Below are positions 3,709-34,530 of a stretch of 64,000 bases of DNA, one piece after another. The notes below the pieces were generated by a model, which did no database searches, was not told the DNA's origin, and worked only from the letters and a program-made list of their open reading frames with translations. Position 1 is the stretch's first letter. Every line of letters starts with the position of its first letter. This DNA is from Clytia hemisphaerica (taxonomy: Eukaryota; Cnidaria; Hydrozoa; Leptothecata; Clytiidae), in the NCBI GenBank assembly GCA_902728285.1, contig CACVBU010000887.1, positions 65,296 to 129,295 of the forward strand, in the 5' to 3' direction. The translations under genes and the position numbers were made by a program.

Positions 3709-3974
3709 CGCACAGAAAGAGGAGAAAATCATAACAAGCTCTAAACGGCTAAAATAACAATCGCAAGTGAATAGGGAATATGTGGTCAGCGGTTTGTTGT
3801 TTTTCCTTCTCTCTACTTCTATTTCTTTGTTTAGACTAGAAGCCTGAAAACTTTAAGGGAAAGTGATAAATAGACGATATCGGCTTAACGAAATTCTCCC
3901 CGAATGATTAACCATGATGCATTGAACAAAAAAAATCAGTAAGTCAATATTGTTTGTGAATGGTTTTCTCTTGA

Positions 3975-4751
3975 CAGGTGATTCTGGTTTCTTTGAACAA
4001 GAACTGAAGGATCTTCCTTTCTTTGTAGGTGGATCTGGATAGGATTTATCTGGAGAAAAAATAACATGAAATCATTTCTTAAAATACTCTTATGACCAAT
4101 AACCAGAAAGAGTCATAAATCAAGTAGAAATTCTAAATACTTCTTAATACTTATGTAGTTAAGAGGGGGAAATCAAAACACTGCTTACAAGTTGTTGTCT
4201 TTTGCTGTGGATTATTTTTCCTTTTCACAGGTGATTCATCCTGTCCACTTGAAGTGCTGTACTCAAACCAATATTGTTGGCATAGTTCGTGGCCTAAAAT
4301 GGAAAAACAAATCAATAAATATAAATATAAATTTTTGATATAAGATGCGATGTGAAAAGTGACAACAAAGGAAAGGTTTTCATATTTTGTTACAAGTCTT
4401 AAATTTTGCAGCATAGACAGGCGGAGACTCTTTTTGTTATGACAGTGTAAAGGTTGAAAAGTAATTTCAACTTACTTCCTTCGACTAACTTTTTAACCAA
4501 TGGATATGTTGGCCAAACTCTTGTCTTGCGTGGATCGTTGATGACCAATAGACTAGTTTATTTTCCTCATCAATCCAATTGAAAGGAACAACAATTTGAG
4601 ATTCATCTCCATTTTTTTCTATACACACAACACATGCAAAGTTACCTGATGGATTTTTACCAATAGGTTCCATTGTTTTTAATCTAATTTTGCTATCAGA
4701 AGTCAATGCAAAGGAAAATATCAATAAGACTAGATATACACTATGTGACAA
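3975..4751 (-). pseudogene. accessory gene of two-gene transposon, copy 1 (three exons seen)
   Basis: Three exons parallel the start of the accessory gene at 24999-19368. Exon 1 (4751-4476) contains FACVVCIEKNGDESQ, VVPFNWIDEENKLVYW and, after a one-frame shift, YPLVKKLVEG. It ends at a GTAAGT donor in phase 1. Exon 2 (4293-4189) reads HELCQQYWFEYSTSSGQDES and ends at GTAAGC in phase 1. Exon 3 (from 4049) follows a TTTTTTCTCCAG acceptor and reads SYPDPPTKKGRSF and PESPVKRKP. Exon 1 and exon 2 phases match those of copy 2. The exon 1 frameshift and the absence of the DUF4806-like C-terminal exons downstream mark it as broken. It follows the copy-1 transposase on the same strand, as in copy 2. 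Confidence 0.65.
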
Positions 4752-5049
4752 GCCTTATCATCTTTCTGCAAGGTTTACAGATAGAAAGTTGGACATTTTG
4801 ATAGCCTATTTAACAACAGAGTATGCACAGAAGTGAGTCAGGAAAAATAGTGGGACAGAATCTACGAATAAAATCGATATAAAATCCTTACAGCCTAAGC
4901 AATTTTTTAAATTTAATTATCCAGTCTCTTGAATTTCTCTTTAAGAAACCTGATTAACAATTTATTAGGAATTACAAAAACTATTAAAATAGTCCTCCTC
5001 TGGATATTGACTTCCATACAAAAAAACATGAGAAGTATATCTATTTAAA

Positions 5050-6765
5050 TCATTTATTCAACATTTATTTGACAACATTTCTCACTGATCAAAAAATCAT
5101 TCAGCAAGCTTATCAAAACATTGCCGGTTTCCACCGCAAGACAGACAATTTTACGTTTTTTTCCAGCACTCTCTATTTCCGCTATTCGCTTAACAGTGGA
5201 GACAAGTGGGTTCGTTGCATTGCGTATTTATCTCTTCAAAATTTGAAGGTGGTTTTCAAATGGAAAACAAGAAACTTTATCCAAGCATACGTTAAATCTA
5301 CGAGTGTCATCTGGCAAATGGATTAAGCTGTGGACATTGTAGACAGTAAAGGTTTCAGTGTAATAAATAGATGCATTATCAGAAAAAAAATCTAAAAGTT
5401 CCTTTGCAAAGTTTAGATGGTATTGCGATGATCATCATTCTCATCAAGCAAAATTCGAAGTGCTGTGACTAATGAGAGAAAATGTTTGTACGCTGGTTGT
5501 GGAAGTATGTCTCTTAGTACAACACATCCATAATACAAAAGAAAAGATCTGAACTCTGTTGCTTTAAATCTGCTCAAGTGGTCAAGTCCTCTGGGTTGTC
5601 TTGAAAATTCTGATGGCATTTTTCCTCGATAGTTTTGCAATAGCTGAGAAATGCGTGTCAACTGACCTTGTGACAAGCGACAAGTACGAAGACCTTCTTT
5701 TAAATACTGAAGAAGTCTTTTCATTACACCAAGGCAAACAAGATGCATGAAATCTGAGCAAAATCCTCTACACACTTTATTCCTGAACCGATCAATGGGC
5801 TCGAGAAATGTTGGTGGTCTCCTTCATATTCAAAATTGTCAAAACTTCTATCAGTTCTTCTGGGTTCGTCGGTTGAAAGGAATACAGTCCTATTTTCAAC
5901 TCTTTGTCCTTTGATAGTGCATCTCTCGCATGCAAAGTATCCTCCATGACCTATAATACATTTCAGAAATTGCCGAGCTGGAGCATCACATGTCATACAC
6001 CATAAAACTACACTGAAATGCCTATTGTCTTCAGTAAAAAAAAACATTTTCTTTTAAATCCCTGTACTCATTCAAAAAATCCTCTAAAAACTCCTCTGGG
6101 CTATCTGGCTTCCCTTGGCCAGTAAATAATGAAAATACAAATGGACGGGGATACACAAACATACCCAGAATAGGCCAAAGGTCAAGCCCTGTTGATTTGA
6201 ACAAAGGTATGCCGTCAGCATTTACAATTAATTTGATGGTTGGTGAATTATAATTTGGATTATCTTCCAAACATCTCGAAATTCCCCTTTTTATTCCAAG
6301 ATAGATATAGCTGCCTCCACATTTTTCTTCTACAGCAACCTCCCTAGGGGTTTTCAACAGTGTACGTGAATCTTTTGGTAGATCATCGTGACCATTAAGA
6401 CGCAATATTTTCAATAACTCTGTCACTCCACCGCGTCTGCAATCATTTTTAACAGCCCATTTTCTCAGCTGCTCAGAAAAAGGTGGCTAATCATTGAAAA
6501 CAAAATTCATTTCATCCTCTGAACTGCTTTGACAATCTGCACTACTTGCAGCTTCATCTTCGTCCAAAATAGAAATATCAGATTCGTTTCCTGATACATT
6601 ATCTATGTTCTGGTCAATTTGATCGTAATCATAATCACTTTGGTCCATATTGCTCGAGATTTCGTCATCACTTTCATCATCACTGGTTTTCAAAAACTTT
6701 TCTTCGTAATTAGCAGTTGTCATTTCATTTGTGAAGGCCTCCAGCAGAATAATTAAAGATTTCAA
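5050..6765 (-). pseudogene. tnp2-like (CACTA/EnSpm-related) transposase, copy 1, frameshifted
   Basis: This is a decayed homologue of the intact transposase at 27571-25649. Blocks in order: an acidic N-terminus (6765-6487); CGGSYIYLGIKRGIS, then NADGIPLFKSTGLDLWPIL (6426-6031); CDAPARQFLKCIIGHGGYF and CERC (6047-5790); DFMHLVCLGVMKRLL, then MPSEFSRQPRGL and ATEFRSFLLYYG (5775-5413). A further block in shifted frames to about 5050 contains VYNVHSLIHLPDD and FENHLQILK. The DG..P, zinc-ligand C/H, DxMH and FEN boxes of the family are all traceable, so the decay is recent enough to read. At least three frame breaks (near 6450, 6040 and 5770) and a stop near 5200 prevent expression. The protein diverges clearly from copy 2, so the two are separate lineages rather than a recent duplicate. 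Confidence 0.85.
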
Positions 6766-6789
6766 AATATCTGAAAAAAAAAATTATTC

Positions 6790-8272
6790 TAAAACTTTAG
6801 GGACTGTCCACATAAGATGTTACTTCTTTTAACAGCTTCAGAACGAAAAAGGCTCAAACTCCTCCCTCTCTACTCTATATCTTATCGGCCAAAAAATTCT
6901 TCACAGATTACACTTTTAAAGCCTTTTTTTTTCAATCTTACTTTTTTTGTTTGTTTTTTATTAATTTTACAAGTAGTCAAGCCTTGGACATATAGACATA
7001 TTTTCCAAAATGGTACTCCATGCCTCTCTGCTTAATGCTCAGCAATTAAAAAGAAGGATCAAGAGGGTAAGTGGAACAATCCAGGAAGAAAGAGTGGCGC
7101 CCTACCCTACCTTACGATAGACAGCTATCGAAAGAGGAGCCTTCGGGAGCCTTATAGACTGTATACAATCCTTAGCAAATAAAGATTTTTAACTAATTCT
7201 AGTAGTACTAGTACATTTGTTGGTCCTAGTTGGTCAGTATATTGGAGCTTATATGCATGTTACCCTCCTCATGGTGCCTAATTCCAGTCTGAATTACCCA
7301 AATTTGGTGTAACCAAAAGTTGCATACATTTAAATGATTTTGCCATATCCAAAGCAAACAGTGTCAATCAAACGATTTGAACGCCAAATAAATTGAACGC
7401 AATCGAATAATTGCAATTGCACTTCCATTGTTTAGCGCAATTGAATATTATCGTCGTTATTATTGTTGTTAAATTGCTTCTAGGATGATTGCATTAATTT
7501 ATGTTTGATTGGGTTCAATTACATTAAATTTTATTCAAAGAAAAACCAGATCTTTCTGTTAACTCATTGTGAAAAGGTTTCCGACCACTTGCTTGGTTCA
7601 GACATTCAGTTCTCAAAGAAAGAGAGCAATACATCGATCCAAGTCACGTTACCTTAATGCAAACTAAGATAACGCAGGTCAGGACACACATTTGTCAAAA
7701 CTCAACACATATAATACCCATATTTTATTCGTTCAAAAGCACAAAAGTGGGGTTGTTAATACAGTAGTCCAGATATGAATTGAACAGTACTGATCTGATT
7801 TAACTTTATTAGCTATTAGCTATATTTTTCCAGTTTTATTAAAATTTTGCAAAATAATAACATATTGAACACTTAATTTGAAAACATTCAAGTGGGAAAT
7901 TATGTAATAGTTCTTACCATAAAAAGGTTGGCACCCTTGGTATGTTAAATGATGTTCGTTGAGATTAAGTTCAAATAGAATGAAAATACCACAAAATAGC
8001 ATTAAAAAAACACGGAATTTCCTCTCACATGCTTCTTCTTGTTGGCGGACATGTGACTGATAGCGATACAGCCAGGAGATTGGTACCGTGATTTATAAGG
8101 GCTTGTCTACATTATGGTCGTAGAAAAAAATTGTTATTATACTTTGTTCTGCTTTCAAGATGTAAAGTGGTCTTTAAGGTTTTCCGGACACACTTACGCG
8201 CGACGTTAATCTGAAAAATATTGATTCTTCACTCTAGTAAGTGTAACAACGCCGCCGAGAATCTAACCAAAA
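6790..8272. other. intergenic, no gene recognised
   Basis: I find no convincing exon. The part at 7340-7560 is rich in AATTGAA/TTCAATT words and CAATTG, giving many short inverted matches. A similar texture occurs at 54510-54780. The rest is unremarkable A+T-rich DNA. A short out-of-frame ATG frame at 8273 (ATGGCGGATGC) precedes the kinase-gene start. Confidence 0.4.
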
Positions 8273-17142: not shown

Positions 17143-18470
17143 CTAAAAGTAATCGAGTTTTAGAAAAACAATAACAAACCGTGTTATGTGGTGGCGGATT
17201 GCCCCTTTAATAGGGTTAATTTCATTTAGAGAAGTAATAGGCATGAAAGGAAGGAAATTTTTGTCTGAAAAAGCTCGGAAAAAGGTTTCAACAAAATGAA
17301 AATATCCATTGCTCCAGTCACACATTAATGTCGTAAAAAAAGACCTTTCAGCTAAAACTTTTGCCTCGAGGAACGAAGTCTTCTTTAGCAAGACTGAAAA
17401 TCTCATCAAATAATTCAAACCATATTCCCATTTGAAAACATATGACCACCTTACTTGCGAGAAATGAAGAACACTTACCATGAAAGTGCCTTGTTTTTCT
17501 TGTTCAATTTTAGCTTTTCGTTTGTTCAAAGATTGTTCATAATAGAATTCACACTCTTTGACCTTTTGTTGAATTTCCTCACCATAAGTGATCTGAAGCC
17601 CCGTAAAGTTTGCTGTAGCCATGTCGGAGACAAACCCTATTGGATTGAATTTGTTGTCCGCTTTGTTGAATGTGGACCAGAAGCGACCCACGTTTTCTTT
17701 TCTTCGCTCTTGCACTCCATCGTTGCAAGTGGTAGTTGTCTTTGTAAGAGTGGATGGTACGTGCTTGCCGTAAGGGTGGTAAAGTTTTTGGTTCGTTTTT
17801 CTTTGCCATCAAAGAAACAGTACTCATCTTCTAGCATGTCACCCTCTTTTGTCATTTCATTTGCTACTTTCATTTTGTTGGTCGAGCTCTTAAAAACGTA
17901 TTGTTCTTCTTCATTTATTTCATAGATCAGAAGTCTGTCTTTCTCATCAGTGTACGTTTTATACTCCCTCGCGTGCTCGTAGGAATCTTTGGCACAGGCT
18001 CGAAACTTTTTCGTTTGTTTTATCTTTTCATTAGATATTGTATTTTTATCACAAAATCGCTTGACAGTTTTATCCACTTCATCCCACGACTTTCTATTCC
18101 TAAGTGCTGATAGCGGATGGTTTGGCTTTTGGGTCGATTGATAGCGCTTCTCTTACAGCAGTCTCTGGTCTTTCAGAAACTACAATAGCAGAACATGTGT
18201 GTATACCCCGATGAAAGATTGCTGCCCGTGTCTTAGCCTCGAAAGCAGTGTATTTGGTGGCAGGACAAGTGAATTCCTCACCAATCGCTCCACAAATCGA
18301 GCAAGAATTGTCATTGTCAAAACGTACTTTGTTTTGTGTTTGAAATTTTTCGAGATAAGCACAAGATTTGGGCAGCGCAATCCACCTTTACAGTGTTTAT
18401 ATCTTACTGTTAAACATCCGGTCCATTTGGTCGATGAATCAGGGTATTTCCATACGTTTTTCAAAACGTC
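17143..18470 (-). pseudogene. MULE-type (Mutator-like) transposase, decayed
   Basis: Blocks in order on the minus strand: a zinc-rich N-terminal part (ERPETAVREALSIDPKAKP preceded by DNDNSCSICGAIGEEFTCPA, about 18330-18130); a lysine-rich linker (18077 onward); then the MULE-like catalytic segment with HPLLQRQLPLATMECKSEEK and, after a frameshift near 17700, NPIGFVSDMATANFTGLQ and VKECEFYYEQS. The P.GF.sD.A..N..GL and C.F pattern fits MULE transposases of cnidarians as I remember them. It ends at a plausible donor (GTAAGTGTTC, about 17478), beyond which a further exon-like stretch (CDWSNGYFHF) continues to 17143. At least three frame breaks make it non-functional. Cys-rich N-terminal zinc motifs suggest a FLYWCH or related DNA-binding domain. 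Confidence 0.7.
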
Positions 18471-18612
18471 GAAAATACGTTTCTATTTGGTCGTATTTGT
18501 CGCTTTTTAAAACGTTTTTTTCCAACGTTCATAGAACGTAATATGAACGTAGATTAAAACGTTTTCAAAAATACGTATTAAAAACGTTGGAGATACGTTT
18601 TTTCCATACTAT
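18440..18612. repeat. ACGTTTT/AAAACGT palindrome cluster
   Basis: Fourteen or so ACGT words occur, most as AAACGTTTT, ATACGTTT or GAACGT, in both orientations. They lie just 5' of the MULE coding remnant. The arrangement could be that element's terminal region or a separate palindromic repeat. Confidence 0.5.
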
Positions 18613-19367: not shown

Positions 19368-22300
19368 TTAGTTCTTCTTCTGCCGACCGCTTCCACCTTT
19401 TTTGTCAGGGGCTCCTTTGATGTGGTCGCCGATGGAAAGACGTTTATGTTTCTCGTCCGAGTCTTTGAACACTTCAGAAACGGCAGCTGAAAAGAAATTC
19501 AAGCAAAATCATGTAATCAGAAGACAACGATTGGATAGCATGAAACACTGTGTTGCAATTTCAAGTTAGTTGATTATCTCAAAATATTATTCCCTGTCAT
19601 AAAAACAGAACTTCATCTCCATCAAAATTCAATCCTTACTTTTTGTACTACTTGTTGCAAATCGAGGAAAATCCTACCGGGTATTTGAGAAGATATGGAT
19701 GATATTTTACGCGAGATAAAGAAATAGAATATCCAATCAAAGTTAGTCGAGATCAATGGCATCAAAAATGAACTGAAATTTACTCTTGAGGAGGAAAAAG
19801 AATTCTTGACATGAAGATAACCCGTTCAAATTGCTGCTTAACGTCAACTTGGTACAATAAACCAACTGATACTGGACTAATGATGAACTATTATGCCTTA
19901 TCTCCTATGAGGTACAAGCGCTCTAATGTTATTGGTTTAGTGCATCGTATTTACCGTTCTTGTAGCACAAGAGAAGACTTTTTAACTTCGCTACAGAGAG
20001 CGCTAGTTTTGTTGATTAAGAACCAGTATCCAAAATCGTTTTTTGAACCTTTGATCCAAAAAACAATCAGGAAAATAGATCATCCAGAGGAAAAGGAGTC
20101 TGAAGATGAAGTCGACCGCGTTGAAAAGATGAAAGTTTACGTTGAGTATCGAGGCAAAATAAGTGAAAAGTTTTCGAATGCTCTACGAAAATGTAACGCG
20201 CCCTGCAGCATTGTGTTTACAACGAGAAAACTGAGATCATGTTTATTGCCCTTAAAGCCCACTATTGAGAAAGAGATGAGAAGCTTCGTAGTTTACCAAA
20301 TTTGTTGTCCTCGCTGTAACGCGAGCTATGTCGGTCAGACGATGCGACATTTACTAAGTCGTTTCAAAGAACATCGCTATGTTTTAAGTCCCGTGGGATC
20401 ACATTTTATTAGATGCAATAAAACTCTAACAATAGATGACGTTTCCATTGTTGATTCATCTATGCGTTCCGTAGAGGTTGAGTTAATGACCCTAGAGGCT
20501 ATCAAGATAAAAGAAATTAAACCGTTGTTAAACACTAAAAACGAATACAAGAGCAAGGCGCTTGTGATTGATTTGGCTTGAAATAGAATTTTTTTTTTTC
20601 AGTTATGTTTTGAAATTGTAAGGGTAAGATGTATGTTTGATATGATGTGTTTGTTACAACAAATATTATATAGATTTCTATATATTTTTACATATTTTTT
20701 CTTCTTTCTTAGACTTGAAAATGAAACACAGTTTTCGAAATATATTGTCAAATCAAATTAAATTGTTGGCTACAGATTTTTATATATATAATATATTTGA
20801 GAAGAGGTGTAACAAACGTATTTACTTTTTATGGTCTTGTAGAGATTGGTTTCACCAAACGCAATTTTTCCAAATCGACCACACAAATTCAAACCGGACT
20901 GGAACTGCACGGTCATTAATCTATAAAAAAAGTAATAATAATAATAAAAGTTACCAATATTTTTGGACGCTTTATCAAAAAGATGCCGAAGAAATTTCAC
21001 ATGTCTGAAACGCTATGCTATGCTTAGCTTGTCAAAAGGCTAACTATGTATCATAAAAAAGGTAAGAGATCGAAATGTAAAGGGATTATTGAAATTTTAT
21101 TTGAAAGATTTGTTCAGAAGTTTTACCAAAAATGCCACAACATTTTGTAGTTTCAAAACCTTGAAAGATGTTTAAAATAATGATTTTTATGGGAACAGGT
21201 TATTTTGAAGAGATTACAGATTCATAAGGGATAGAATGAAAGAAATTTTGGGTTTAAAAAAGATCAGAGAAGATGAGATTAGAAGAGCTAAAAGTAATCA
21301 CCTGTTCAAAATAATGTTGACCATATCGACATATGTGGATCCACCAAATCGTTTGATGTTTGAAATCTAGTATATCAAGAATGAAACACTCACTTAGGAA
21401 AACAATAAGAATCTTTTTTAAATACATAACTACAGATTTAACTACATCTCTTTTTCAAGTGTTATATTAAACGTGCTAAAACTTAAGCAATAAATAACTT
21501 AGATATAAGTAGACTAAGAAACCCAAATGAGGTTACTAGAAATCAAAAAGTATGTGATGTATTTTACAAGGTCTAGGAAATTATAAACAACTCTTACAAG
21601 TTTTCTTTTCGTCGCTTCATCAAGTAAAGCTTCTTCCACCGATTCCAAATCGTCTGTGCTTTCAATTTGAGGGATGTCATCCTCATTCATTTGGGTTGTG
21701 TCCCAAAACTTCAACAATTCGTGCACCTTTACGATCATTTTCATAAGTTTCCCTTGCCTACTTTTAACTTCATCAAGGTTTGCTGAAATACAAAACACAA
21801 AGATTATATAACAATTACATCATCTATACGCTCGTATCACTAAAACTGCAACCATCATCGAAATGCCTGACAATTGCATAGCACGAAACACTGTATAGAT
21901 ATTCCTAGTTAGTTGATTGTTTCAAAATATTATACATATAGGTATGATTATAAGTAAATTGAAATTATTTTGCAAAAAAAAAAACGATAAACTTATTCGT
22001 CTTAAAACATTTATCATCCTTACTTTCGATCTTATCAAGGCGATCACTCAGGCGCCTGGAGACGGTTATGTCGTAAGAAGGTGAGTTGTTTTCTTCATCA
22101 ACTTCTTCTGCTTCTTCTCCATGCAATGTTTGGCTTCTAAAAGATAAAAAATAAACTAAAGTCTGCCCCAGAAGTATGTGGACACAGCATTTAGCATTTA
22201 CTCAGCAACCACACTATATTCAAAAGTGCTTAGAAAATTTTAAATCTATATCTTCCTTGAATTTATTTCCTGTCAACGGTACATAATTTTATGGGCCATT

Positions 22301-24999
22301 GATTTTCAACTTTCAAATCATATGTAACAAAAAGAATCTATCGTGGTGGTTATTTTCAGTGAATAAGAAAAAGGATTCCAACCTCGCTTGACATATATTT
22401 CTGACCCCGAAAACAAAAACTAACAGAATCTGCAAAACTTCCGCCAAAAATGACCGTTAAATCAATTTTATTAAATCTTTTCTGCTAAATTAACAACTTT
22501 TATCATAAATAATTAAAATTAATTCAATTCCTTACGTCTTTTTAGAAGCTTCTCTATAAGAATAGTTTAAAGACTTCTTTGAAGGAAAAGGCGACTGGAA
22601 TGATGATGCAGCAGAAAGGAAACTAGAAATATAATTGTTGGATAAATTATTCATTATTAAAGTCTCTATCTACTCTATCTCTAATTAATTTCGCTACAGA
22701 AGTTCTAATAAAAACGCTCAAAAACTAATTTTAATATCTTATTTTTTTCCTACTAATTCCGCCAACTATGACAACCTAATATCCAGAGTGTTTGGAAAAC
22801 TGAACTGGCCTGAAATTCTCATAATGCATTTAATAACGAGATTCGGCACATGCACCACCAGACATTGTTGGTATTCCAACAAGACTAAAAATGTAAGATT
22901 AGATGTAAGTGAATAGGAAAGAAATCTAGATTCCTTTGCAAATTTTCCAAGGGCCTCGTGGAAAGTTTATGGAAAATGATTAGGGGATGCTCAAGAATTA
23001 AATACTAAGTTTTATTAGGGGAAGAAATAAACCTCGAACAAGAATTTACTTTGATGCAAGTAACAAAAATTAGAAAAAGAAACGCAAATATTTACCTTCT
23101 CTTTTGAGCTGGTGACCTATAACGAGGTTCGGCACATGCACCACCAGACATTGTTGATATTCCAACAAGACTAAAAATGCACCAGTAAGATTAGATGTAA
23201 GTGAATAGGAAAGAAATGTAGCTTCCTTTGCAAACGTCCCAGGGTCTCGTGGAAAGTTTATGGAAAAGTTATTAGGCGATGCTCAAGAATTAAATATCAA
23301 GATTTTGTTAGAAAGAAATCTAGTTTCCTTTACAAATGTCCCATCCCAGGGCCTTAATTTATCTTGGTGGCTATAAGGTTTTTCCTCGAATTACTTTAAT
23401 TTTCAAAGAATAAGACATTCTGTTAGAAAGAAGGTATCATAGTTTGCTTTCAAGAATATTATGAAAGGGATACCATGATTTTGATATAGGTTTAGTTTGG
23501 AACTACTCAATAAAAACACCCCTGTGTCACTGACCCGTTGGAAAATTTAGTGCAAATTTCGTCATCTGTGGGAAAATGAACCACTAGAAAACTGAATTTG
23601 ATTTAATCCCCATTTGAAATTAAAGGGAAAACTACTCAGTACAAAGCAATCCACACTAGATTTTTCGCCTCAGGAACAACAAATTTTTTTTTCCATTAAA
23701 ATTTCGATAGGAAGTTTCAACATGGGCTGCGAGACAGGGCTGTATAGAAATAGATGGCGATAAAATAGATAAGCTTCCACAGGAAAGAACATTTATTTAA
23801 AATCTCCTTTCCTATGGAAACAAATCGCAACTTTTTGACTGGAACATGTTGCTCACTAACACTAAGTTTTCGTTCAATAGGGAACAGCTCTCTTTGTCGT
23901 TGCTGTTGGCGACAAGTTTTCTTTCACAACATCTACAATGAAAACAAAAGCTACTATCATTTACATTATCTTTTAGGTAAAATGTTTATTAGAAACAAAG
24001 CTTGGAAAAAAGTTGTGTGTACAAAATAACTAGTTGTAGTCATTAGATAAATACTGTAGAACCATACCACAAGAACATTTCTTTGAGAAGAATATTCTTT
24101 TCTGCAAAAACTTGAAAAAAAATGGCTGCTGTAAGATTGCATGAGTGACGATCAATAGAATAAAAGCCATTACTTATTAAAAAGCAAAACGCTTACCAAA
24201 ATATATGGCTCAGGCTCAGATCCGCAGTTTTTTTCAAACAAAATATTGTCAACATGAAATCCTGCAAATCAGTTGAGATTATCTTTCGAAAATAGGGTCT
24301 CAGATAATATTTTCGAATTGATCAAATGAAAAAGCTTTTTGATTGTTTTGAAATAAACTGGAGTTTTATCGAAAATAATAAGTACCTGTTTTGTTCCGGT
24401 GTCGATGTCGGTGAAAAGTTTACTTTTTCCTCTTCAAAGGCGTCAAACGATCTATTGAAAATGATAATTGGATAATTGATTCTCATGACGTTGTAACTAA
24501 TAATTGATAAAAATTAATAACAACTAATGAAGAATTCTGAAGAATTTATAGAATTTCAAAATAGGAAATAAAATAAAAAATACTCACTTTCTCTTTCTTT
24601 TCGTCCTCTTGATTGGTGAATCTTGTGATTCTTCTGGCTCAGTTTCATATTCTGTACCACTTTTGATTGCGTCGCATTGTTCCTTTGTACCTGTAAAAAT
24701 AAATAAATTTTTGTGGGTCATAAAAATACCAAAAAGTTGGTACGACATCTAAATATTGTTGCCTTTTTAAGCCCTTAAATTAGAATTGTTTTAAGTAACT
24801 TACAATTTCGCAATACTTCGCTCTCGATCGAGATTTCTTTCCAGTTCTCGTGAGGATCAGCATTCAATTTGGACAGCTTTTGTTCCATAAACTTGTCTCT
24901 TGGAAAATAACACTTGTCTCCAAGCACCCATTTAGATGGTACAGACATCATTTTCTTTTTGTTGTTTTCTGTAAGCTTTGCCACACTATAATGAGACAT
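19368..24999 (-). CDS. DUF4806-like accessory gene of two-gene transposon, nine exons, intact frame
   Basis: Exons on the minus strand: 24999-24804, 24690-24588, 24451-24386, 23170-23096, 22622-22536, 22136-22024, 21782-21598, 21012-20826 and 19486-19368. They total 1131 nt (376 codons plus TAA) and keep one frame through every junction, with GT donors and AG acceptors throughout. The N-terminus (YSVAKLTENNKKKMMSVPSK, KCYFPRD, NWKEI) is the domain that commonly precedes DUF4806. The middle is Ser/charged with IKRTKRKRK as a likely nuclear signal. Exons 7-9 give DIPQIESTDDLESVEEALLD, LNLCGRFGKIAFGETNLYKT and HIKGAPDKKGG, matching the DUF4806 pattern (Glu-rich entry, G..GK..F, basic tail). A TTA microsatellite adds a tyrosine run in exon 8. 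The gene follows the intact transposase by 650 bp on the same strand. Its role in transposition is unknown. The last intron holds a Penelope fragment. Confidence 0.75.
19740..20590 (+). mobile_element. Penelope-like retroelement, 3' fragment with GIY-YIG endonuclease
   Basis: A 256-codon frame (19811-20581) encodes the end of an RT (WYNKPTDTGLMMNYYALSPM, YKRSNVIGLVHRIYRSCST), a connector, and a C-terminal GIY-YIG nuclease. The nuclease reads FVVYQICCPRCNASYVGQT with RHLLSRFKEHR, and the late acidic helix is TLEAIKIKEIKPLLNTK. The CxxC after the GIY-like strand is typical of Penelope-like elements. Upstream (19740-19810) the RT similarity continues in another frame (LEEEKEFL, then DMKITRS), so one frameshift lies near 19805. 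Most of the RT is missing, consistent with 5' truncation at insertion. It is antisense within the last intron of the accessory gene. Endonuclease residues look intact. Confidence 0.9.
22833..23355. repeat. local tandem duplication spanning exon 4 of the accessory gene
   Basis: About 195 bp at 22833-23030 is repeated at about 23120-23312 (offset about 287 bp). A third partial copy of GAAAGAAATCTAG plus TTCCTTT follows at about 23310-23345. The right copy contains the used exon (23170-23096). The left copy retains the exon start and its acceptor but runs into TAA after CGTTAT, so it is a dead duplicate exon. Confidence 0.8.
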
Positions 25000-25648
25000 G
25001 TTGACCTGAAAAACAAATAACGATGAAATTTATAATTATTCTTTAAAATTGAGGGTTGAAATGACCAATAGATAAAAGACCAATAGATAAAAGACAGTCT
25101 TAGGGCAAGGGTTAGTGGTGGAAAATTTTAAATGAAAAAACAAGTAATGGTTGAACCCCATGTTACAATACTAAGGAAAGGGAGAAAATAAAAAAAATTG
25201 CCCTTTTGTACCCTTGTTACAATTACATTTTTCGTCTTTCAGAATAAAAAATTCCATTAATTCTTAATTTCTCAATAACAAACTTTAGCAAATAACAAGA
25301 TAAGGTTACTTTAAAAATGTTTAAAACCTTTTGAAAAAAGTAAAGCTTTATCCTAGTTCAAATAATTTATAACTTCATCTAACCACACTCAAAAAATCTA
25401 TCACAACTATCACGACTACTTTTCTAGAAAGAAAATGATGATCAAGATAATTGAGGAGGTTTTTAAAAGTGCCCAAAAACTGTACTTGTGTGATTTCAGA
25501 AAAAGAATCATAACTTGAAAATATAATGAAAATGCAAATAATTATATTTCTACTGAATTGAAAAATATGCATTGTCAATTATGATCAAATACTTTCTTCC
25601 TAAGTTCACAGCTAGAATATGCTCGGAAAGTTTTTTCATAAAATACAA

Positions 25649-27571
25649 CTAATATTTATTTTCACCAAAGAAATGTAGCAATGGCAGAAAAATAAAGCCA
25701 TCTTTATAAGAAAGTCTTATTGCCTTCTTAGATACATTTTCATAATTGATTAATCTTCTTTCTGAACCCAAATTGGAAAAGTTTTTGGCATAATAGATTC
25801 CAAGGCGCTTGGAGTCAACAGGACTGTTGTAAAAAGACTCCATTTGACGTGTGCTTATGATTTTGCAGTCTAAATAAGTTGGGCTAACGTACTGAACAAT
25901 GCACAAATCACCATTTACATCAAAGAAGAGCCCGTTCTTGCCATGTGCTTTCATGTTGGTTCTGCATTTATTTTTCATCTTGTTACCAGAGCCAGCTGTA
26001 TTCCTCTCAGAAATTATCTTAACAAGTTGAGCAACTGGGTTTCTACTACTTCTGATGTTCTTCTTTAACTCTTGCATAAAATTTTCAAATTTAAAGGCGC
26101 TGATTTCGTTCAAAGATCCATAATTTAAGGCATCATCAACAATATGTGGAAGCGAATGAACGTTATAAACATCGAAAGTGTTTCCATAAAATCTTTTTGA
26201 AGTATTAACTAACTTCTGTAAAAGTGTCCTGGCCTCGCTAGCATCATCATTAGAAACGGAGCTTTGTAATAAAAGAGAAATTGCAACATGCAACAAAAGA
26301 AAGTGCTCATAAAAACCTGGATCAACTATTCCTCTGAGTACAATTGGACCATGATATAAAATGAATTGTCTAAATTCGGTAGACTTCCAATAACATAGGT
26401 CAGACAGGGGCCTTGGCTGGCGATTGAATTCAGAAGGCATCTGTCGATTGTGGAGACATAATCTGTCTGAAATTTGTCCGATTAAATTCTGAGATAATCT
26501 GCATATGGGTGGGCCTTTCATGATGAAGATTAAAACACGCTTAACAACGCCTAAACATACTAGGTGCATATAATCTAGGGGAAATTGATTCACACAGTCT
26601 ATTCCAAGTTGTATCAATGGGCTCAGATCTTTCTGATGATCTGGCAAATATTTTCCCTCTTCAAAATCTACACCTGTTCGAAGGCTTTCCTGATATGTTG
26701 CTTTATTGAATACGGTACGATTGTCAACTCTCTCACCAACAAAATTGCACCTTTCACAGACATGATATCCTGCATGCCCAATGGTACATTTCAAAAACGA
26801 CCTTGCAGGAGCGTCACAAATGAAACACTTAAGAGAAAATCGATAGCTTTGGTCCTTTAATGTCAAACCGTTCTGAAGAATATCCCTAGCTTCTGTAATA
26901 AAATCATACACATATTCCTCAACTGGTTTCGAGTACCCATGGAATATTGCAATGACAAAAACATAATCAGATGAATTTATTGAATCTAAAATAGGCCATA
27001 GTTGAGAATTGGTTGATTTTTCAAGAGGAAAACCATCTACATTTACAGACAACTTTATAAAGGGATATAATTCATTGCTATGGTCAATTGAAGAGGAAAT
27101 TCCATTACGTATACCAAAGTAAAAGTACGACCCTCCACATTTGCTATGAACATCTATATTACGTGGTGTACTTAATAGAGTCGTGGAATCCTTAGGTACA
27201 TCCATACCATATTTTCGCAGAATCCCAAGAACTTCATTAGTATAGTCTCTGGATAAACGCGTTTTAGTTGCCCAAGCTGCAAGGTGTGATCTCAAAGTAT
27301 CTTCTACTCTCAAAGGCAAGTCAGCTGCAATCTCATCTTCTGAGAAAACATAATCAAGCTCGGAAAAATTTGATATTTCATCATATTCTGTATGCAAAGG
27401 TTCCTCTAGTGTACTGTCACATCTAAGAACATCGTCTATAGATACACTGTCAATGTCACTGGTCGAGCTATCCAGACTGTCAAAGTCAGTTTCATTATCA
27501 CTGATGGTTTTGTCATTAAACATTTCTTCAGCAAGTTTGTTGACTGTTCTTTGTCTTTTCCGTGACGACAT
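25649..27571 (-). CDS. tnp2-like (CACTA/EnSpm-related) transposase, intact 640 aa
   Basis: A single uninterrupted 640-codon frame, probably a DNA transposase acting in the nucleus on element termini. Residues 1-90 are basic then acidic/Ser-rich. About 145-160: CGGSYFYFGIRNGIS. About 175-196: NVDGFPLEKS...LWPIL (candidate catalytic D179). 249-275: CFICDAPARSFLKC...HAGYHVCERC, a zinc-ligand cluster. 330-342: FPLDYMHLVCLGV (candidate D333, H336). 379-405: PSEFNRQPR...STEFRQFILYH. 469-500: YNVHSLPH...FKFENFMQEL (candidate E496). This box order matches tnp2-family proteins of animals. The assignment to CACTA/EnSpm is by that pattern; the catalytic residues are inferred. It lacks the terminal DUF4806-type domain, which is encoded by the next gene on the same strand. 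A broken relative lies at 6765-5050. The start at 27571 is the first Met in an open frame, with a short out-of-frame ATG 11 bases upstream. Confidence 0.88.
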   Translation of the reverse strand: MSSRKRQRTVNKLAEEMFNDKTISDNETDFDSLDSSTSDIDSVSIDDVLRCDSTLEEPLHTEYDEISNFSELDYVFSEDEIAADLPLRVEDTLRSHLAAWATKTRLSRDYTNEVLGILRKYGMDVPKDSTTLLSTPRNIDVHSKCGGSYFYFGIRNGISSSIDHSNELYPFIKLSVNVDGFPLEKSTNSQLWPILDSINSSDYVFVIAIFHGYSKPVEEYVYDFITEARDILQNGLTLKDQSYRFSLKCFICDAPARSFLKCTIGHAGYHVCERCNFVGERVDNRTVFNKATYQESLRTGVDFEEGKYLPDHQKDLSPLIQLGIDCVNQFPLDYMHLVCLGVVKRVLIFIMKGPPICRLSQNLIGQISDRLCLHNRQMPSEFNRQPRPLSDLCYWKSTEFRQFILYHGPIVLRGIVDPGFYEHFLLLHVAISLLLQSSVSNDDASEARTLLQKLVNTSKRFYGNTFDVYNVHSLPHIVDDALNYGSLNEISAFKFENFMQELKKNIRSSRNPVAQLVKIISERNTAGSGNKMKNKCRTNMKAHGKNGLFFDVNGDLCIVQYVSPTYLDCKIISTRQMESFYNSPVDSKRLGIYYAKNFSNLGSERRLINYENVSKKAIRLSYKDGFIFLPLLHFFGENKY

Positions 27572-28750
27572 TCTCTCTTCATTTTGTAGACAATAATTAC
27601 AATAGTTGTAAGTAATGAAGGGTTTTATTCAAAATCATAGTCTATTTAGTAAGAACTCACTGAAGAAACTATCCCTTTTGTGAATCCTGTTTAAATAAAG
27701 TAAACCTTGTGATCTAACTTATCTTCATTAAGCTAATTAGCCACATTTAATCAAAATATTAGATAAATGGTTTTGGTTATCAAAATAATAGTTTTTTGCT
27801 AGTTTCATTGGACAAAGTCTTGTAGGTATCTACTATCTAAAGATCTAAAAGAATTTCTATTCATGTATTAATATTCATTCATTAATGAATATTTTTTAGC
27901 TATTTTAGGGAATATTTTAAAATTCTACAGTACATTTATTCTTGATTGCCACTTTCCATCACCTCTTTAGTGTGAAACAGGTAATGTTATATATCTCTAT
28001 TTAGTCATAGATGAATTCTTAATGGGTTATTTTCAATTTATTGACTTGCGTGAAGGAATGGGGCTCTAAATACTTCTTCTTAAAATATCCCTCCTTTTTA
28101 TTTGCCACAAAACATCACAAAAGGACTTTAGACATAGATCATAGTCAATTCATGCAAAAGTATAGTCTTCTTAGGTTAGATTCCCCTTAAAATCACATCT
28201 TAAAACAGGCTGGTGTTTTTTTGTGGATATAAATTGTAAAGTGTGAGAAATTGCTTTAAATTGACATAATCAGCCACTAATTTTCACACATGTGAAAATA
28301 TCAGTTTTTTTACATATCATCGAAATTCTAAGCTATCATTTGAGCTTGAACTTATATGAATTGTAAAACAATTGTTATTAGCATTTCTATTTTCACTTTA
28401 AAAATAATTTCAGCTTACTTCGGACCACACAAGTTCACTCATTTCTTTCAAATTTCCATCACATTTTCTTTACAAAATATTCATCAGCATTTCAACAAGC
28501 TAATCTACATATCCTTTTTTAAACAAAAAGTCAAAGTGAAACTTTGAGCCTGCGCTGAAAAGACACAAAAAAAAAAATATTATAAATATTAACAGCAATA
28601 ATTCAAAAAAAGGTTTTTCAAACTACTTAGGACTTACCATTTAGTGAATTATATATAATGGTTTTTTCTAAAAAGACCACTTTTTGTAAAATTCTAAAAT
28701 GTCCTTTCCTGTTGAAACTCGTCTAACGCTTAATTGGTACTGCTGATTCG
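27572..28750. other. upstream flank of transposase, no gene
   Basis: A+T-rich DNA that should contain the transposase promoter and the right end of its transposon. I could not identify a TAGTG-type terminus matching a left end. A 63-codon frame at 28356-28547 has no recognisable features. Confidence 0.35.
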
Positions 28751-29733
28751 TTAACCCTTTGACTCCGCTCTCATTCCTACCTACAGCGAGGATGGATTTT
28801 TTCTAAATTTGACGTTTTAAGAGAATAGTCATAAATTTTTAATAAGTCATAATCTGAACAAAAGTTATACATTTTTGGAGAGCTAATTGAATCTATTTTC
28901 TTGTTATGTTATAAATATTTTCTTCAAAAACCTCACAAAATTTCCCAATCTTTCCATAAACTTTCCAAGTCAAAAAATGTCACAGATTGTTGCATGTCAC
29001 TGCATTTTTACAAAAAAATGGTGCGACGAAATACGATAAAGATTATTTCCATCAAAACTTGTTTCTTATATAGTTTGGCTTCAAATAAGACCAAAATCAG
29101 TCAAATAGCATGATTACTTTTTGAAATGTTATATACATGCGAAAAATCAAAACTTTGACCCTTTTTCGAAAGGGTGAAAAAATTTGGGTTTTAGTTGGTG
29201 ATTTTCAGCTACTAAATCTTCTATCCAGCCAAAAATTTTACTCAATGTTACCAGACAAACTATCAAAGGGACACTTGAATAAGTTTTAGTCAGCAAAATA
29301 TATCCAAGTTCAAGGTTATAAGCCAAAAGTGCCAGCTGTAGGTTGTTACCGGGGAGGTGGGAGAGGTACTAAAATCCATAAAAACTAAAGTGAAATAATA
29401 AATCGAAAGGTAAAAACTTACAGGGTGGTTAAAAGATAACTTTGTTGCCAAGAAAAATCAAAAGAAAAGCTTGAAAAATACTTTAAAACACTCCTTACTT
29501 TTAATCACATAACAGAACCTTCCTTGCCACCATTTTTACTGTTTTCAACCGTTTGCTTTGAAATTTCTTTACATCCAAGTCCTATGACAGCTATACTTTT
29601 CGGAAAGGATTTTTTATTCACTCTCCGAAAATTTTAACCTGATCCTTTCAGTACCAAAACATAGTGTAGAATCTGAGCTCGAAGAAGACTCTCTCTCAGG
29701 ACGGGTATACGTCCCTTATAAGCTAAGCGTTAA
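28751..29733. mobile_element. TTAA-bounded non-coding element (candidate)
   Basis: The left edge TTAACCCTTTGACTCC (28751) resembles piggyBac-like termini, and the right edge ends TAAGCGTTAA (29724-29733). Just outside the left edge lies TAACGCTTA (28723-28731), the complement of the right-hand end, so the true left end may be there instead. No transposase is seen inside. Boundaries are tentative. Confidence 0.4.
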
Positions 29734-30299
29734 TCCTTCTTTCTAGAAATATTTTATTACCAAAATTAATTAATTCCAACATTCACATTAATCAGGTATC
29801 TTTACTTACTCAAAAGCAGATAAACACAACAATTTATAAAAATGTAAAAAAGAACAAAACAGGGTCTGTGAAATATTTCTTTTACAAGTGCTTTGCCTCA
29901 ATCAAAAAGAAACTTTTGCAATTTTTAACCAGAAGATTTTACACAAGTATATAAAAAACCATGAAGATATCTGATTTTAAAACCACTGACTTCTTCTAAA
30001 CTCTGCGTCGCCATCTTGAATTTCAATGTTTTTATAAACGTTCATAAATAAGTCCTTTTGCCTAAGCGCCTTTGACATACACTTTTCTGAAAGAAAATCT
30101 CATCAGCTTTTCCTATATATATCTAAACCTTTTAGATATCAAAACAAACCAAATAACAAAATAGCATGCTTTAAAACCAGCCACTTCAAAGCAGGAGGTG
30201 AATATCTACCATGTATTAGCTATGAATTCACTTTCCTTAAAAAAACAAACAAAATGTACACAAAAATTCCATGAATAACCAACATAAAAAAAAATTCGA

Positions 30300-30600
30300 C
30301 CGACTGCATAGGTGCCAACTCTCACGCATTGGACGTGAGACTCACGCATTCCAACACTGTCTCACACAATTTTTCAAAAGTTTGATTTCTCACGCATTTT
30401 TGATATTTGTAAGAAATTTCCCCGATTTTCCGATTTTTGGAAAAAAAAATTTTCCGATTTTCCGATTTTCGGAATAAATTTCCCCGATTTTCCGATTTTT
30501 CGGCAAATTTTTCCCGTTTTCCGAAGTCGGAAAATCGGAAAAATCGGGCTAAGATTTCGGATTTTCCTTCGAAATTTTTATCTCACGCTAAATGAACATC
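30300..30600. repeat. TCACGCAT / CCGATTTTCC repeat block
   Basis: It begins GGTGCCAACTCTCACGCATT, with TCTCACGCAT recurring four times, then repeats of CCCCGATTTTCCGATTTTT in several phases (30418-30575). It also contains the complementary form GTCGGAAAATCGGAAAAATC, giving hairpin potential. Non-coding. Confidence 0.7.
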
Positions 30601-30762
30601 TTAAGTCGGACTAACCCACCTCAAAAATTTAGAGTTGGGTGATGGCAAAACAAGAATTTTTAAGTCCAGTCCACCAGCCTACACACTTACACATTTCGTA
30701 CAATTTTTTTAACCCTGACCGCCACCGACCATCTTTTTCAAAGTTGGGTGGATGATAGGAAC

Positions 30763-31790
30763 CAATCAATTGTAAAAGGGGTTACGCACGATACCAAAGT
30801 CTCGTGTTCGCAAGCGAAAGGTTTTTTAAACACTACCGTAGGAAGCTTTCTCATTCCCGGGGAATTCCCATTGCCAGTTTACAACAGAAAAGGACCGAAA
30901 TTAACCCAATTTTTGTTAACTTGTTTGAAAATAAGGCAACATCCGAATTTTGCGATTTTGGCGCTTTCAATTATTAGGGGTACGTACGGCAAAATTCAAA
31001 CTAAGGGACCCCAGCCGTTTGCGTCATTCGTGATCGCGGGAAATAATTTGAGGCATCATTGTGCGTGATTTGTGCTATTTTCGTCATATTTGCATGATGT
31101 ATCAACCACTTTTGGTGATTTGCATGGTATTGTCACGAGAGCAAGATAGATTTCTATAGATGTAATTTAAGCATATACAAACTCTGGTGAACAAAAACTT
31201 GATTTTGGGACATTGAGCCTCTTTCGCGAAGTTAACGTATTTTTGAAAATTTGTGAAACTATATAATATCCCTGTAATAAAACACTGAACATTTTTCTGA
31301 AAACACCGACCAACCACAAATTACATACTGCTATATGATAGACTGACCCTCCCCCAGCTCCACCGGCTGATTGGTTATAAAATCATCAAATGTTAATGTT
31401 ATGGTGAATTTTAATGGAAAGGAAACTCGTTAACTACACAAAATGTCAGAATGTTCACTCTAAAACCTAATTAATGAAAAACTTGGAAAATCCTGATGGA
31501 ATACAAGATAGAATGACATATTTCTTTATAAGAACGATTTCATGAGAGTCGAGGATCAAATCGCCAGGGTATAAAAACAACTTTAAATGGCTGAATCACA
31601 AGAATTTGAATTGCAAGAGTTCTTACAAAATATTAACAATTGAGGTGAAATAAGCAAAAATCGTATGCTTTTTTATTATAAAATTCAATAAATACAATTA
31701 ATGGAACAAAGATAGTCTCAAATAACTTAAAATTTCGATCTAAAATAAGAAAGTCATAACGATTGTTTGGTATAAAAAAAATAAAAACAT
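30763..31790 (+). repeat. dispersed repeat family, copy 1
   Basis: It starts CAATTGTAAAAGGGGTTACG and aligns along most of its length to 47497-48080. Shared words include CAAGCGAAAGGTTTTTTA, CCCAGCCGTTTGCGT, TCACGAGAGCAAG, ACAAACTCTGGTGAAC and, near the end, CTTAAAATTTCGA with TTTTGGTATAAAAAA. This copy is about 450 bp longer in the middle. A 106-codon frame (30748-31068) exists only here and is disrupted in the other copy, so it is probably not a gene. Confidence 0.75.
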
Positions 31791-32227
31791 CCTAGGCTCA
31801 ACAAAGAGTTTTGGAAGAAAATATGAGTAACTCGAGCATGTGGTAAACAATAAAATTGTAATCAAATAAAGGATTTATTGATTTATTATCTTATTGAAAC
31901 TCGGAATTATAGAAATAAAAATGAGAACAGCAAGTTCTCAACAAAAAATTACTGGTTCAAATAAACGAGACTGTAAAACCGAGAGGTCTTAGAAAAATCC
32001 GCAAAATCTCCAAGAGTCCTAAAATTTCCTAAAAGTAAAAAAAAAACAGAAAAGTCAAAAATCATAAAATATATAAATCTATTTCTTTTGTTAGAAATGG
32101 TCCTTCCAGAAAACTCATTCATTTGGGTTGGACAGTGAAAGATATATTATTTTTTCCATAATTTTACTTAGGATAGGACTGTTTTTTTGCAATTTTTTCA
32201 AGAACTGGGCGGGATGGTTGGTATTTT

Positions 32228-32322
32228 AAAGGTAAATTGGGTGTGTCAAGTATGTGCAAAATTCATTCTCTCACAGGGTCAATTTTCAATTTTTGGCTTG
32301 GACATACCCATCACCTACCGTG
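32228..32322. mobile_element. degenerate, shortened relative of the nested hAT-type MITE
   Basis: AGGTAAATTGGGTGTGTCAA with GTATGTGC on the left and TTGGCTTGGACATACCCATC on the right parallel the arms of the MITE at 63214-63571. The G-rich outermost termini are lost. Confidence 0.55.
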
Positions 32323-32332
32323 AAGTCGGGTG

Positions 32333-32489
32333 CATGCATAGCCCTCAAATGAATGACCTGGCTGGTCCTTAAAATACAAAGTTAAATTAAAACAAAAATG
32401 GTAGAGTAAAGCTGTGAGCGGAGCTGCGTAGTTCATTTGTTTTGAAATTTTGCTGCTTTGATTGGTCAGTCATTTGAGGGCTATGCATG
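32333..32489. repeat. 26-bp inverted repeat around 105-bp loop
   Basis: CATGCATAGCCCTCAAATGA continuing to ATGACC (32333-32358) pairs with 32464-32489 at 25 of 26 positions. It could be a miniature element or a hairpin RNA source. No target duplication is evident. Confidence 0.7.
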
Positions 32490-32499
32490 TTAGCCTCCA

Positions 32500-34530
32500 C
32501 TGATGCAAGTTACACGGTAGTTACCCCTGGTGCCTGGAAAAATCACCCAAGCCAGATGAAGAGTTTTTTCTGGCACAGCACAGTCCTTTATACCGTCAAC
32601 TGCTCTAATTTGGGACTACATGACAAAACATATGACAGCAATTCGGCCACCATTTCACCAAACCTCCAAAGTCATTTGATTTGAGTTAATGAACGGCGTA
32701 TTAAAAAATACACGATTTCTCTTTTGCACCGAGTAGGCTTTTAAATTGAAATATGAAAAAAAATTGTAGTGAAATGCATGCAAGTGTCTGGAATGAAGAA
32801 GAACAAATTAGTGGCAAAACGATGGAGCAATTGACAAGTTAATCCCATCAGGTGATACCTAGGAGGTTAGGCGGCGGGCATTCTCTAATTCTCCAATCTG
32901 CGCCCGGTCATTTTGAATGAAAACAAAAAAGTTAAAAAGGGCGCGTTATCAGTGAAAGTTGTCGTGACATGCTATGACAGAAAGTAAGATTGATAAACTT
33001 GGTGGAGTTATCAAAGCAAATTTGTTGTCAAAGAGATTTAACACTAAGTGAAAATACAGGCCAGATTGTCAACAGTCCCATGCTTCAACCAATTGTCCCA
33101 AGTTAGAACTTGACAGTAATATACAGCTTTTAGAGAAGAAAAAGATCCAAGAATTATCCATTAACAAGTTTATATTGAAGCAAACAAATCCCATTTGATT
33201 CGCTTTAAATCAGGCTGTCAGTCATCATCCATTCAACTGTCAGTTACCGTCCGTCAAACATCAATAATAATCATATCCAGATATCATAACATAACTTATT
33301 AGAATCAAGCATATGCATGCACACTATGCATGGTGCAGCACACGCACGTATTACGTGATTATTGTACTTGATCATCAAGCCGTTGTTCCCTTGTTTCTTT
33401 CATCCACTTGATTAAGCTGATATTTCTAGTCTTTACCAGCTGTGACTGTTCCATGCAATTTCCAGAAGAATTGTGAATTTAGGAAAATCAAATCTTCCAG
33501 TACTCGCTCCTCAACAAAGCAACACCAACAAGTGAATAGGTAGAGCTACAGTTCCAAAAATTGAAGAATAAGGTACAAAACTGAACCATCATAGTTCCTA
33601 GATATATTTGTTCTGTTTAACTGTTTTTGACAGCTGCAATGCAAGCAGGCAAGTCACAACCAATTCTGCTCTGATCAACAAAAAAGTGATGCTGGAGCTA
33701 GCCATTTTGAATATTCTGCCTTGACATTTGCCAGTTTTTGTTGGATAGAAAAAACACCAGGATAAAAAACAGCAGTACTTTTAATGTTGTTGATAATTTT
33801 AAAGCAAATTGAATCAATTCAATCTTCTAGTCAAAGCAAGACAAACCCAGCAAACCATATATGTCGCCAAAAGTTTTCAGGTTTTTGGTTTTGTTGACAA
33901 AAATGTTTTGTTTACTTTCTTGTTGTCGGGGGGAAACCCGATTTGCCGATTACTGACTTTCCCGCCTATTTCCCGATTTCTTATAGTTGGTTGCACTTAC
34001 CATGTTAAAATACAAATTCGTAAATCTAAAGTTATCTTAGTGAGTTTGTCCGTAGAACATTCGAATCGTTCGAAAAGTTGTAAAAAAGTTGAAGATTTGA
34101 AAAATGCAACACGCATAGTATAGATTTTCGGGTTAATTTCGGTTTCTTTTCGCACGCCCGCCCGCCGTTGGAAAAAGGAACGCACTCGCTCGCTGCGCTC
34201 GCTCGTGCGTAACCAGGCTTTTTTTTGACAAAAGGCCACAATGTTTAGGTTTTATGATACAAAAGAACATATTATCAACCAGTCGCTTCCTACTACAGTC
34301 AGGTAAATCCTTCAATTGCGGTAGTAATTTTTTACTGCAATTGTGGTATAAACGTCACTTTTACATTTTTCATATACTGCAATATTGCGGTAAATTCAAG
34401 AAACATAATTCAAGATTTAAGGAGAAAACAGGCAATTTTTACACATAATTGATCATATCTTTCTAACACAGATCCAGAGACCAGATTCTTTTAATAAAGA
34501 AAAGCTTTCTTCCATATATAACTCAATCTT
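32500..34530. other. no gene recognised
   Basis: I found no exon set. Notable words are ATGCAT clusters near 33310-33345, and a palindrome CGCACTCGCTCGCTGCGCTC continuing to GCTCGTGCG near 34181-34209. Short plus- and minus-strand frames here lack motifs. Confidence 0.35.

Follow-up and report, generated by a model that had tools for sequence, protein, structure and literature searches.

A probable terminally truncated two-gene TRC transposon in Clytia hemisphaerica, with a DUF4806-like accessory gene

The CACTA ('EnSpm') transposons of animals, known as TRC elements, have so far been described by their transposase and their terminal CCC; further products of SmTRC1 are reported, in the sections of its description cited here, as not detectably conserved (DeMarco et al., 2006; PMC1636069). 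The same source gives the motif A of eumetazoan and fungal TRC transposases as [LVI]-D-x-[LM]-H-x3-L-G. For the wider EnSpm-Mirage-Chapaev-Transib clade, a pattern of D, D and E has been given, with C(2)C and H(3-4)H lying between the second D and the E (PMC12730594, 2025). In maize, the element En/Spm depends on two proteins, TNPD and TNPA, both of which are required, and TNPA is a multi-exon product that binds the subterminal repeats (PMC2613891). Here we analyse a stretch of 64,000 nucleotides of the hydrozoan Clytia hemisphaerica (contig CACVBU010000887.1, positions 65,296 to 129,295; G000:C613:65296-129295 in the 417 Mb genome that was searched), hereafter the window, in which a transposase gene is followed on the same strand by a multi-exon accessory gene. 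Taken as a whole, the explanation that we consider probable is that this locus is a terminally truncated and interrupted copy of a two-gene TRC transposon.

The transposase of the window (P0001) starts at 27571 on the minus strand and runs to a stop codon at 25649-25651. Its 640 codons (638 residues translated plus 2 more from the stop-to-stop open reading frame, ORF) contain no break, as the initial annotation had claimed. The accessory gene lies downstream on the same minus strand and was rebuilt from splice sites and phases. The resulting model has 10 coding exons for 367 amino acids (1104 nt including the stop), ends at 19368 and has GT-AG borders in 9 of 9 introns; it takes the place of the nine exons and 377 codons proposed earlier. 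The coding features are the following:

25649..27571, minus strand: transposase ORF, a single exon of 640 codons plus stop (ORF list, translation, 21-member alignment)
24804..24999, minus strand: accessory exon 1, ATG at 24999, with a pyrimidine tract and CAG ending six bases before the ATG
24588..24690, minus strand: accessory exon 2 (splice and phase model, C504 spliced alignment)
24386..24451, minus strand: accessory exon 3 (splice and phase model, C504 spliced alignment)
23096..23170, minus strand: accessory exon 4, 25 codons, symmetric phase 2-2
22536..22622, minus strand: accessory exon 5 (splice and phase model, C504 alignment, C421 copy)
22024..22136, minus strand: accessory exon 6 (splice and phase model, C504 alignment, C421 copy)
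21598..21782, minus strand: accessory exon 7, start of the DUF4806-like domain (residues 247-320)
21302..21366, minus strand: accessory exon 8, with the RFGG motif of the DUF4806-like domain
20826..20920, minus strand: accessory exon 9, end of the DUF4806-like domain
19368..19486, minus strand: accessory exon 10, including the stop codon

A search for terminal inverted repeats (TIRs) in the single window copy yielded candidates at chance level only, and the termini were obtained from relatives instead. Three elements, the only ones with both ends obtained intact, were complete:

C504:1055209-1073074, 17,866 bp: TIR CCCAGCCGGCA, perfect over 11 bp; target duplication GT/GT
C820:296085-309179, 13,095 bp: TIR CCCAGCCGGCA, perfect over 11 bp; target duplication AA/AA
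C522:551003-559821, 8,819 bp: TIR CCCAGCTGGCAC, perfect over 12 bp; target duplication TA/TA

Each of them holds both genes in the same order, the accessory gene of C522 being recognised by exon 1 and the DUF4806 part. Their consensus inverted terminus is CCCAGCYGGCA, and the accessory-side ends of the relatives read CCCAGCCGGCAAAAAAACGT or close variants, followed by an array of ACGT sites. The sequence CCCAGCCGGCAAAAA occurs 57 times in the genome and its reversed control 0 times. CCC inverted repeats and a 2-bp duplication, the marks of TRC elements, are present in all three complete relatives; plant-type CACTA termini are absent from them, the ends being CCCAGC and the duplication 2 bp. 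The common termini that the initial annotation proposed to look for thus enclose both genes in the relatives.

The pairing of the two genes was followed genome-wide from both sides. With an exon-1 profile, accessory exon 1 was found downstream and on the same strand in 23 of the 30 transposase loci examined out of the 74 transposase places in the genome (22 directly within the set L009-L038, and L012 by way of the longer locus L041), at E ~1e-9 or better, and no match located upstream or on the opposite strand did better than E 0.095. This search for the pair, suggested with the first description, therefore recovered the same order and strand in most of the loci. From the accessory side, 14 clusters had an E of 1e-3 or better, and eight of them had an upstream same-strand transposase match within 1.7 kb, where chance predicts ~0.6% per cluster (based on an approximate total of 66 transposase places); this count used 35 of the 74 transposase rows, among them every row from a contig that carries an accessory cluster. 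The weaker clusters C680, C612, C594 and C370 (E 0.01-0.11) are also near transposase matches. The distances among transposases and among accessory proteins are correlated across 20 loci, a set that includes two near-identical pairs (Mantel r 0.795, p 1e-4), and the nearest neighbours of the two proteins agree in 16 of the 20.

Two counts run the other way. Exon 1 was not found in the examined stretch of seven of the 30 transposase loci (L013, L017, L019, L030, L031, L032 and L035), several of which are fragments, and six of the 14 accessory clusters (C421, C928, C430, C691, C605 and C200) have no transposase match within 20 kb. The latter is what speaks for the accessory gene being an unrelated host gene that came to lie beside transposases by chance or duplication. 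Three of the six, C421, C430 and C200, adjoin element termini, the clusters of C430 and C200 lying next to the CCCAGCCGGCAAAAA terminus, and the same-strand downstream placement in 23 of 30 loci speaks against the host-gene explanation, which is refuted by the shared termini that enclose both genes in the three complete elements; we give it next to no credence. The accessory matches at C691:785091-786222 and C605:464509-464676 have neither a transposase match nor a known terminus beside them, and they are either broken copies or free-standing relatives.

The transposase sequences add to the classification. Residues D179, D253, C272xxC275, H472xxxH476 and E496 of P0001 are invariant across the 21-member transposase alignment, a pattern that fits the CMC/CMCT clade (EnSpm, Mirage, Chapaev, Transib, RAG1); by analogy, these residues would have catalytic and zinc-ligand roles. 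Motif A reads LDYMHLVCLG at positions 332-341 of P0001 and is present in 20 of the 21 members. Motif I (F/Y followed by WP[ILV]) has a strict match in 13 of 21 and, under a looser rule that omits the F/Y, in 18 of 21, P0001 having E at the F/Y position. Profile-profile comparison of the transposases with the genome's own PF02992 proteins gave E 1.6e-4 and a probability of 51%. A Pfam scan of the 21 members, in which 13 families were matched by any member at E up to 1, found DUF4218 in 13 of 21 (best 3.7e-4). DUF4218 is a companion of Transposase_21 in plant CACTA proteins. Sequence searches of the PDB returned nothing relevant and a search of IMG/VR returned zero loci. The CCC ends, the 2-bp duplications, LDxMHxxxLG and the D/D/CxxC/HxxxH/E pattern together place the element group in TRC, the animal CACTA ('EnSpm') elements.

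The accessory gene is conserved in structure as well as in sequence. Spliced alignment of the window protein to C504 gave a full-length open model with 225 of 358 residues identical (63%). Introns follow query residues 65, 101, 121, 146, 175, 213, 275, 296 and 328 in C504 and residues 65, 99, 121, 146, 175, 213, 275, 296 and 328 in the window, so that eight follow the same residue and one is two residues off. In C820 (173 of 362 identical) the introns after 65, 213, 275, 296 and 328 are kept; the C27 model has 136 of 351 residues identical and one stop, and the models of C27 and C522 are only partly reliable. Both genes have evolved under purifying selection: the ratio of non-synonymous to synonymous substitution rates (dN/dS) between the window and C504 amounts to 0.10 in the accessory gene, against 0.09 in the transposase; these ratios are rough because dS is above 2, and the comparisons with C820 are saturated. 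The pairing in 23 of 30 loci, the three complete elements, the Mantel correlation and dN/dS near 0.1 strongly support the earlier proposal that both proteins serve one element.

Around exon 4 the window carries a tandem duplication (22833-23305), with a broken duplicate of the exon at ~22833-22893. In the C421 copy there are three exon-4-like units, and because of these the copy number of this symmetric 25-codon exon may vary in frame. At the start of the gene, 13 of 24 loci, which are not independent, have a pyrimidine tract and YAG in the 28 nt preceding the accessory ATG, compared with 394 of 5424 control ATGs. Such an acceptor-like sequence in about half of the loci suggests a leader upstream, and the accessory mRNA is thus predicted to be spliced, probably, from an upstream leader, which could be reached by cis-splicing over the transposase or be a trans-spliced leader.

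The window element is larger than the initial annotation had it. Homology to the close copy at C421:1482641-1495961 extends, with gaps, from 18452 to 34512 and covers 18452-19693, 20794-23865, 28431-30306, 30609-30765 and 34208-34512. C421 has no transposase match and no match to accessory exons 1-3, and it is a deleted copy of the element. On the accessory side, the matches of C421, C928 and C74 all begin at window position 18452. Further parts of the window copy are the following:

18452..18602, no strand assigned: accessory-side subterminal array of 11 ACGT sites at 11-14 bp spacing with one 35-bp gap; the outer CCCAGC terminus of the relatives was not found
19693..20793, plus strand: insertion in the last accessory intron, GIY-YIG fragment with an ORF at 19790-20581 (Pfam E 4.7e-4, narrowly below the curated cut-off)
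28431..34512, no strand assigned: transposase-side arm, homologous to C421 at 28431-30306, 30609-30765 and 34208-34512; no CCC terminus was found

The window was searched for both element termini at up to five mismatches and neither was found. Compared with C421 it contains extra sequence at 19693-20793, 30307-30608 and 30766-34207. The first of these, the GIY-YIG fragment, presumably Penelope-like, is an insertion, since it stands between two copies of the 11-bp repeat TATTTGAGAAG (19682-19692 and 20794-20804) and the C421 copy represents the empty site. The second is a 302-bp short repeat that interrupts the transposase-side arm; its presence at many other places of the genome indicates that it is an insertion as well. 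The third, of 3.4 kb, was either gained in the window or lost in C421. The description of the transposon as intact therefore holds for the reading frames only. The segment 34208-34512 is not retained as a candidate for the terminus on the transposase side, since C421 runs on past it before reaching a CCC end. A repeat of ~990 bp just upstream of the transposase (27731-28720) may be an older insertion in the element, because at least two other genomic copies (L048 and L049) share both of its boundaries. In the close copy, C421:1483947-1492806, the accessory-side end begins at CGGC; if CCCAGC has been lost there, the flank is TT, the same two bases that follow the other end, a picture like that of an end trimmed back by a few bases.

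Open frames in a copy with no CCC terminus could also mean that the window locus is a domesticated pair, recruited by the host and kept despite the loss of both termini. The transposase ORF and the accessory exons are open, and between the window and C421 the proportion of differing non-synonymous sites (pN 0.021) is below that of synonymous sites (pS 0.057; Fisher p 0.04) over the 219 codons of exons 5-10, in which C421 has no stop. Yet C421 itself, with neither a transposase match nor a match to exons 1-3, keeps exons 4-10 without a frameshift (exon 6 has one 3-bp deletion), so the open frames may simply reflect youth. Moreover, the deep dN/dS says nothing on the window branch and the window copy has taken up insertions. 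We regard domestication as very improbable.

DUF4806 is a domain of unknown function that is widespread in animals. In the predicted layout of the accessory protein, a conserved N-terminal module is followed by a variable middle and a DUF4806-like C-terminal domain. DUF4806 (PF16064) is the best Pfam family in three of the four accessory proteins tested, the one of the window included, with alignments that span 73-76 residues. Pfam searches of rough unspliced concatenations missed the domain, which the properly spliced protein revealed, and a PF16064 search of the genome by single exons gave three weak matches only, presumably because the domain is split over exons. DUF4806 is called a subtype of the DNA-binding BEN domain in a paper on zebrafish chromosome 4, which cites Pan et al. 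(2023) for it (PMC11075544); on that authority a BEN-type DNA-binding fold is putative for the accessory domain.

The ends of the elements provide a candidate site for such a protein. The first 180 bp contain 12, 9 and 8 ACGT on the accessory side of C504, C820 and C522, respectively, and 8, 9 and 4 on the transposase side, compared with 0.29-0.39 per 180 bp inside the elements. The spacings are mostly 11-14 bp, in the main 11-12 bp or about one helical turn, or near multiples (22-26, 34-35), and the register 11,11,12,11,35,13,11,11 is common to C504, C430, C781, C412 and C421. Exceptions are spacings of 6, 39 and 90 bp in C522 and of 29 and 61 bp on the C421 transposase side. Shuffling each of 11 ends 300 times with its dinucleotide composition kept never gave as many ACGT as observed, except on the transposase side of C522. 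Further terminal matches elsewhere in the genome (26 matches, 16 stretches inspected) keep the array, as a cis-acting site would be expected to do. A separate group of seven ACGT lies in the window at 11575-11687, with irregular spacing and no CCCAGC end, and is probably unrelated.

A large transposase ORF, a multi-exon gene and repeated end sites are found together, as in maize, and from this we infer a TNPA-like role for the accessory protein. It would bind the phased ACGT sites of each end on a single face of the array, bring the ends together and recruit the transposase, which would then cut at CCC; by analogy, an unrelated domain would here do the work that TNPA does in En/Spm. A truncated two-gene TRC element whose accessory protein is the array-binding, end-pairing and transposase-recruiting partner, with an upstream leader as a probable shared feature of expression, is the account that we judge the better founded, short of certainty.

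The array could also be read by the transposase itself. Under that explanation the TRC element is the same, and the DUF4806-like protein would do something else, for example counter silencing, mark chromatin or act as a repressor. The conserved N-terminal module of the accessory protein matches no recognised DNA-binding family in Pfam, giving only an ANG-1-like match at E 0.19. Many DDE transposases bind their own subterminal repeats. Furthermore, TET/JBP genes carried by some fungal DNA transposons, EnSpm among them, are thought to counter silencing by methylation (PMC12730594). On the other side, plant CACTA elements split the tasks between two proteins (PMC2613891), and DUF4806 is counted, in a paper that cites Pan et al. 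(2023), among the subtypes of the BEN DNA-binding domain (PMC11075544). We consider this alternative unlikely, while giving it more weight than the other two.

Several further observations weigh against an accessory partner that binds the arrays of a TRC element. The DUF4806 matches stay under the 25-bit cut-off: 18.4 bits (E 0.0027) in the window protein, 21.3 bits (E 3.4e-4) in C820 and 22.9 bits (E 1.1e-4) in the accessory part of C522, and the C504 protein had no DUF4806 match in the Pfam search. P0001 matched 0 Pfam families at E up to 10, no member of the 21-member set matched PF02992 (Transposase_21) at an E of 1 or below, and an AlphaFold model of the transposase was too poor to keep (mean predicted local distance difference test, pLDDT, of 39). 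The Pfam comparison proposed by the initial annotation thus bears out DUF4806 as the best family of the accessory protein at a score below the cut-off, and gives the transposase no family. Between the window and C421 the exons show no significant excess of conservation over the introns (2.87% vs 4.20%, p 0.15), and 11 of 24 loci have no acceptor-like sequence before the accessory ATG by the rule used. In the arrays, the gaps of 90 bp in C522 and 61 bp in C421 lie at transposase-side ends, and the ACGT count on the transposase side of C522 only equals the shuffle maximum.

The window contains a second, decayed copy with the same gene order and strand:

3833..7367, minus strand: decayed copy from a different family within the same clade, with a broken transposase at ~6570-5117 and accessory exon 1 at 4754-4488

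Its transposase is broken over frames, and the pieces show 41-49% amino-acid identity. The long DNA segments are 95.5-97.8% identical to C832:2169420, whose transposase is ~40% identical to P0001, and the copy therefore belongs to another family; its shared order and strand had been recognised correctly, but it is not a diverged copy of the same family. Other features of the window are the following:

9389-10168, plus strand: single-exon protein kinase-like ORF (Pfam Pkinase E 1.2e-19)
11923-13081, minus strand: probable remains of an LTR-type (long terminal repeat) retroelement, with integrase zinc-binding and reverse-transcriptase RNase H domains
35485-36437, plus strand: two ORFs that overlap in different frames, each with a match to the integrase core PF24764 (E 0.0019 and 1.2e-10)

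Among known systems, SmTRC1 and the TRC elements share with the elements described here the CCC termini, the 2-bp duplication and a large transposase ORF with LDxMHxxxLG, accompanied by further spliced products (DeMarco et al., 2006; PMC1636069). In the cited sections of that paper, the portions of SmTRC1 outside Transposase_21 are apparently not detectably conserved, whereas here the second gene, with its DUF4806-like domain, is conserved from family to family; the Results of the same paper contain no mention of phased ACGT arrays, which are present here. The Hydra element Spongebob_HMa / EnSpm-4N1_HM has a TIR, CCCAGCCAACATTGAC, that resembles CCCAGCCGGCA, and shows the same 2-bp duplication and TRC assignment; in the account given of it, its transposase could not be defined and no second gene is described, while both genes were found here (PMC4298943). 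DUF4806 is listed in the Hydra genome paper among the domains enriched together with transposase and DNA-binding domains. In the accessible literature that mentions DUF4806, Repbase and subscription journals standing outside the search, no tie to a transposon was found, and no title or abstract returned by searches on TRC/EnSpm elements or on BEN domains with transposons links DUF4806 to a transposon. DUF4806 and BEN-domain factors are similar to the accessory protein in that the C-terminal domain of three out of four proteins aligns to PF16064, and differ in the sub-threshold scores and in the joining of the domain to a transposon-borne N-terminal module. Shared termini, co-inheritance and selection here tie a DUF4806-like domain to transposition, which is new, and the helix-phased ACGT array, as a candidate binding site, makes the function of an orphan domain family directly testable. 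As a tentative and rather speculative extension, DUF4806 might at root be the end-binding subunit of TRC/CACTA transposons, polymerising on the helically phased, CpG-containing ACGT array and perhaps acting as a methylation-sensitive switch of transposition, and the orphan DUF4806 genes of animals might be its domesticated derivatives. The maize En/Spm, with TNPD and TNPA, is like these elements in combining a large transposase ORF with a multi-exon second gene, in its subterminal repeats and in having deletion derivatives that keep the ends. Its TIR is CACTA and its target duplication is 3 bp, in contrast to the CCCAGC ends and the 2-bp duplication found here, and TNPA has no known sequence relation to the accessory protein. 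If the proposed role is correct, the two-protein architecture of these animal elements would be convergent with that of maize En/Spm.

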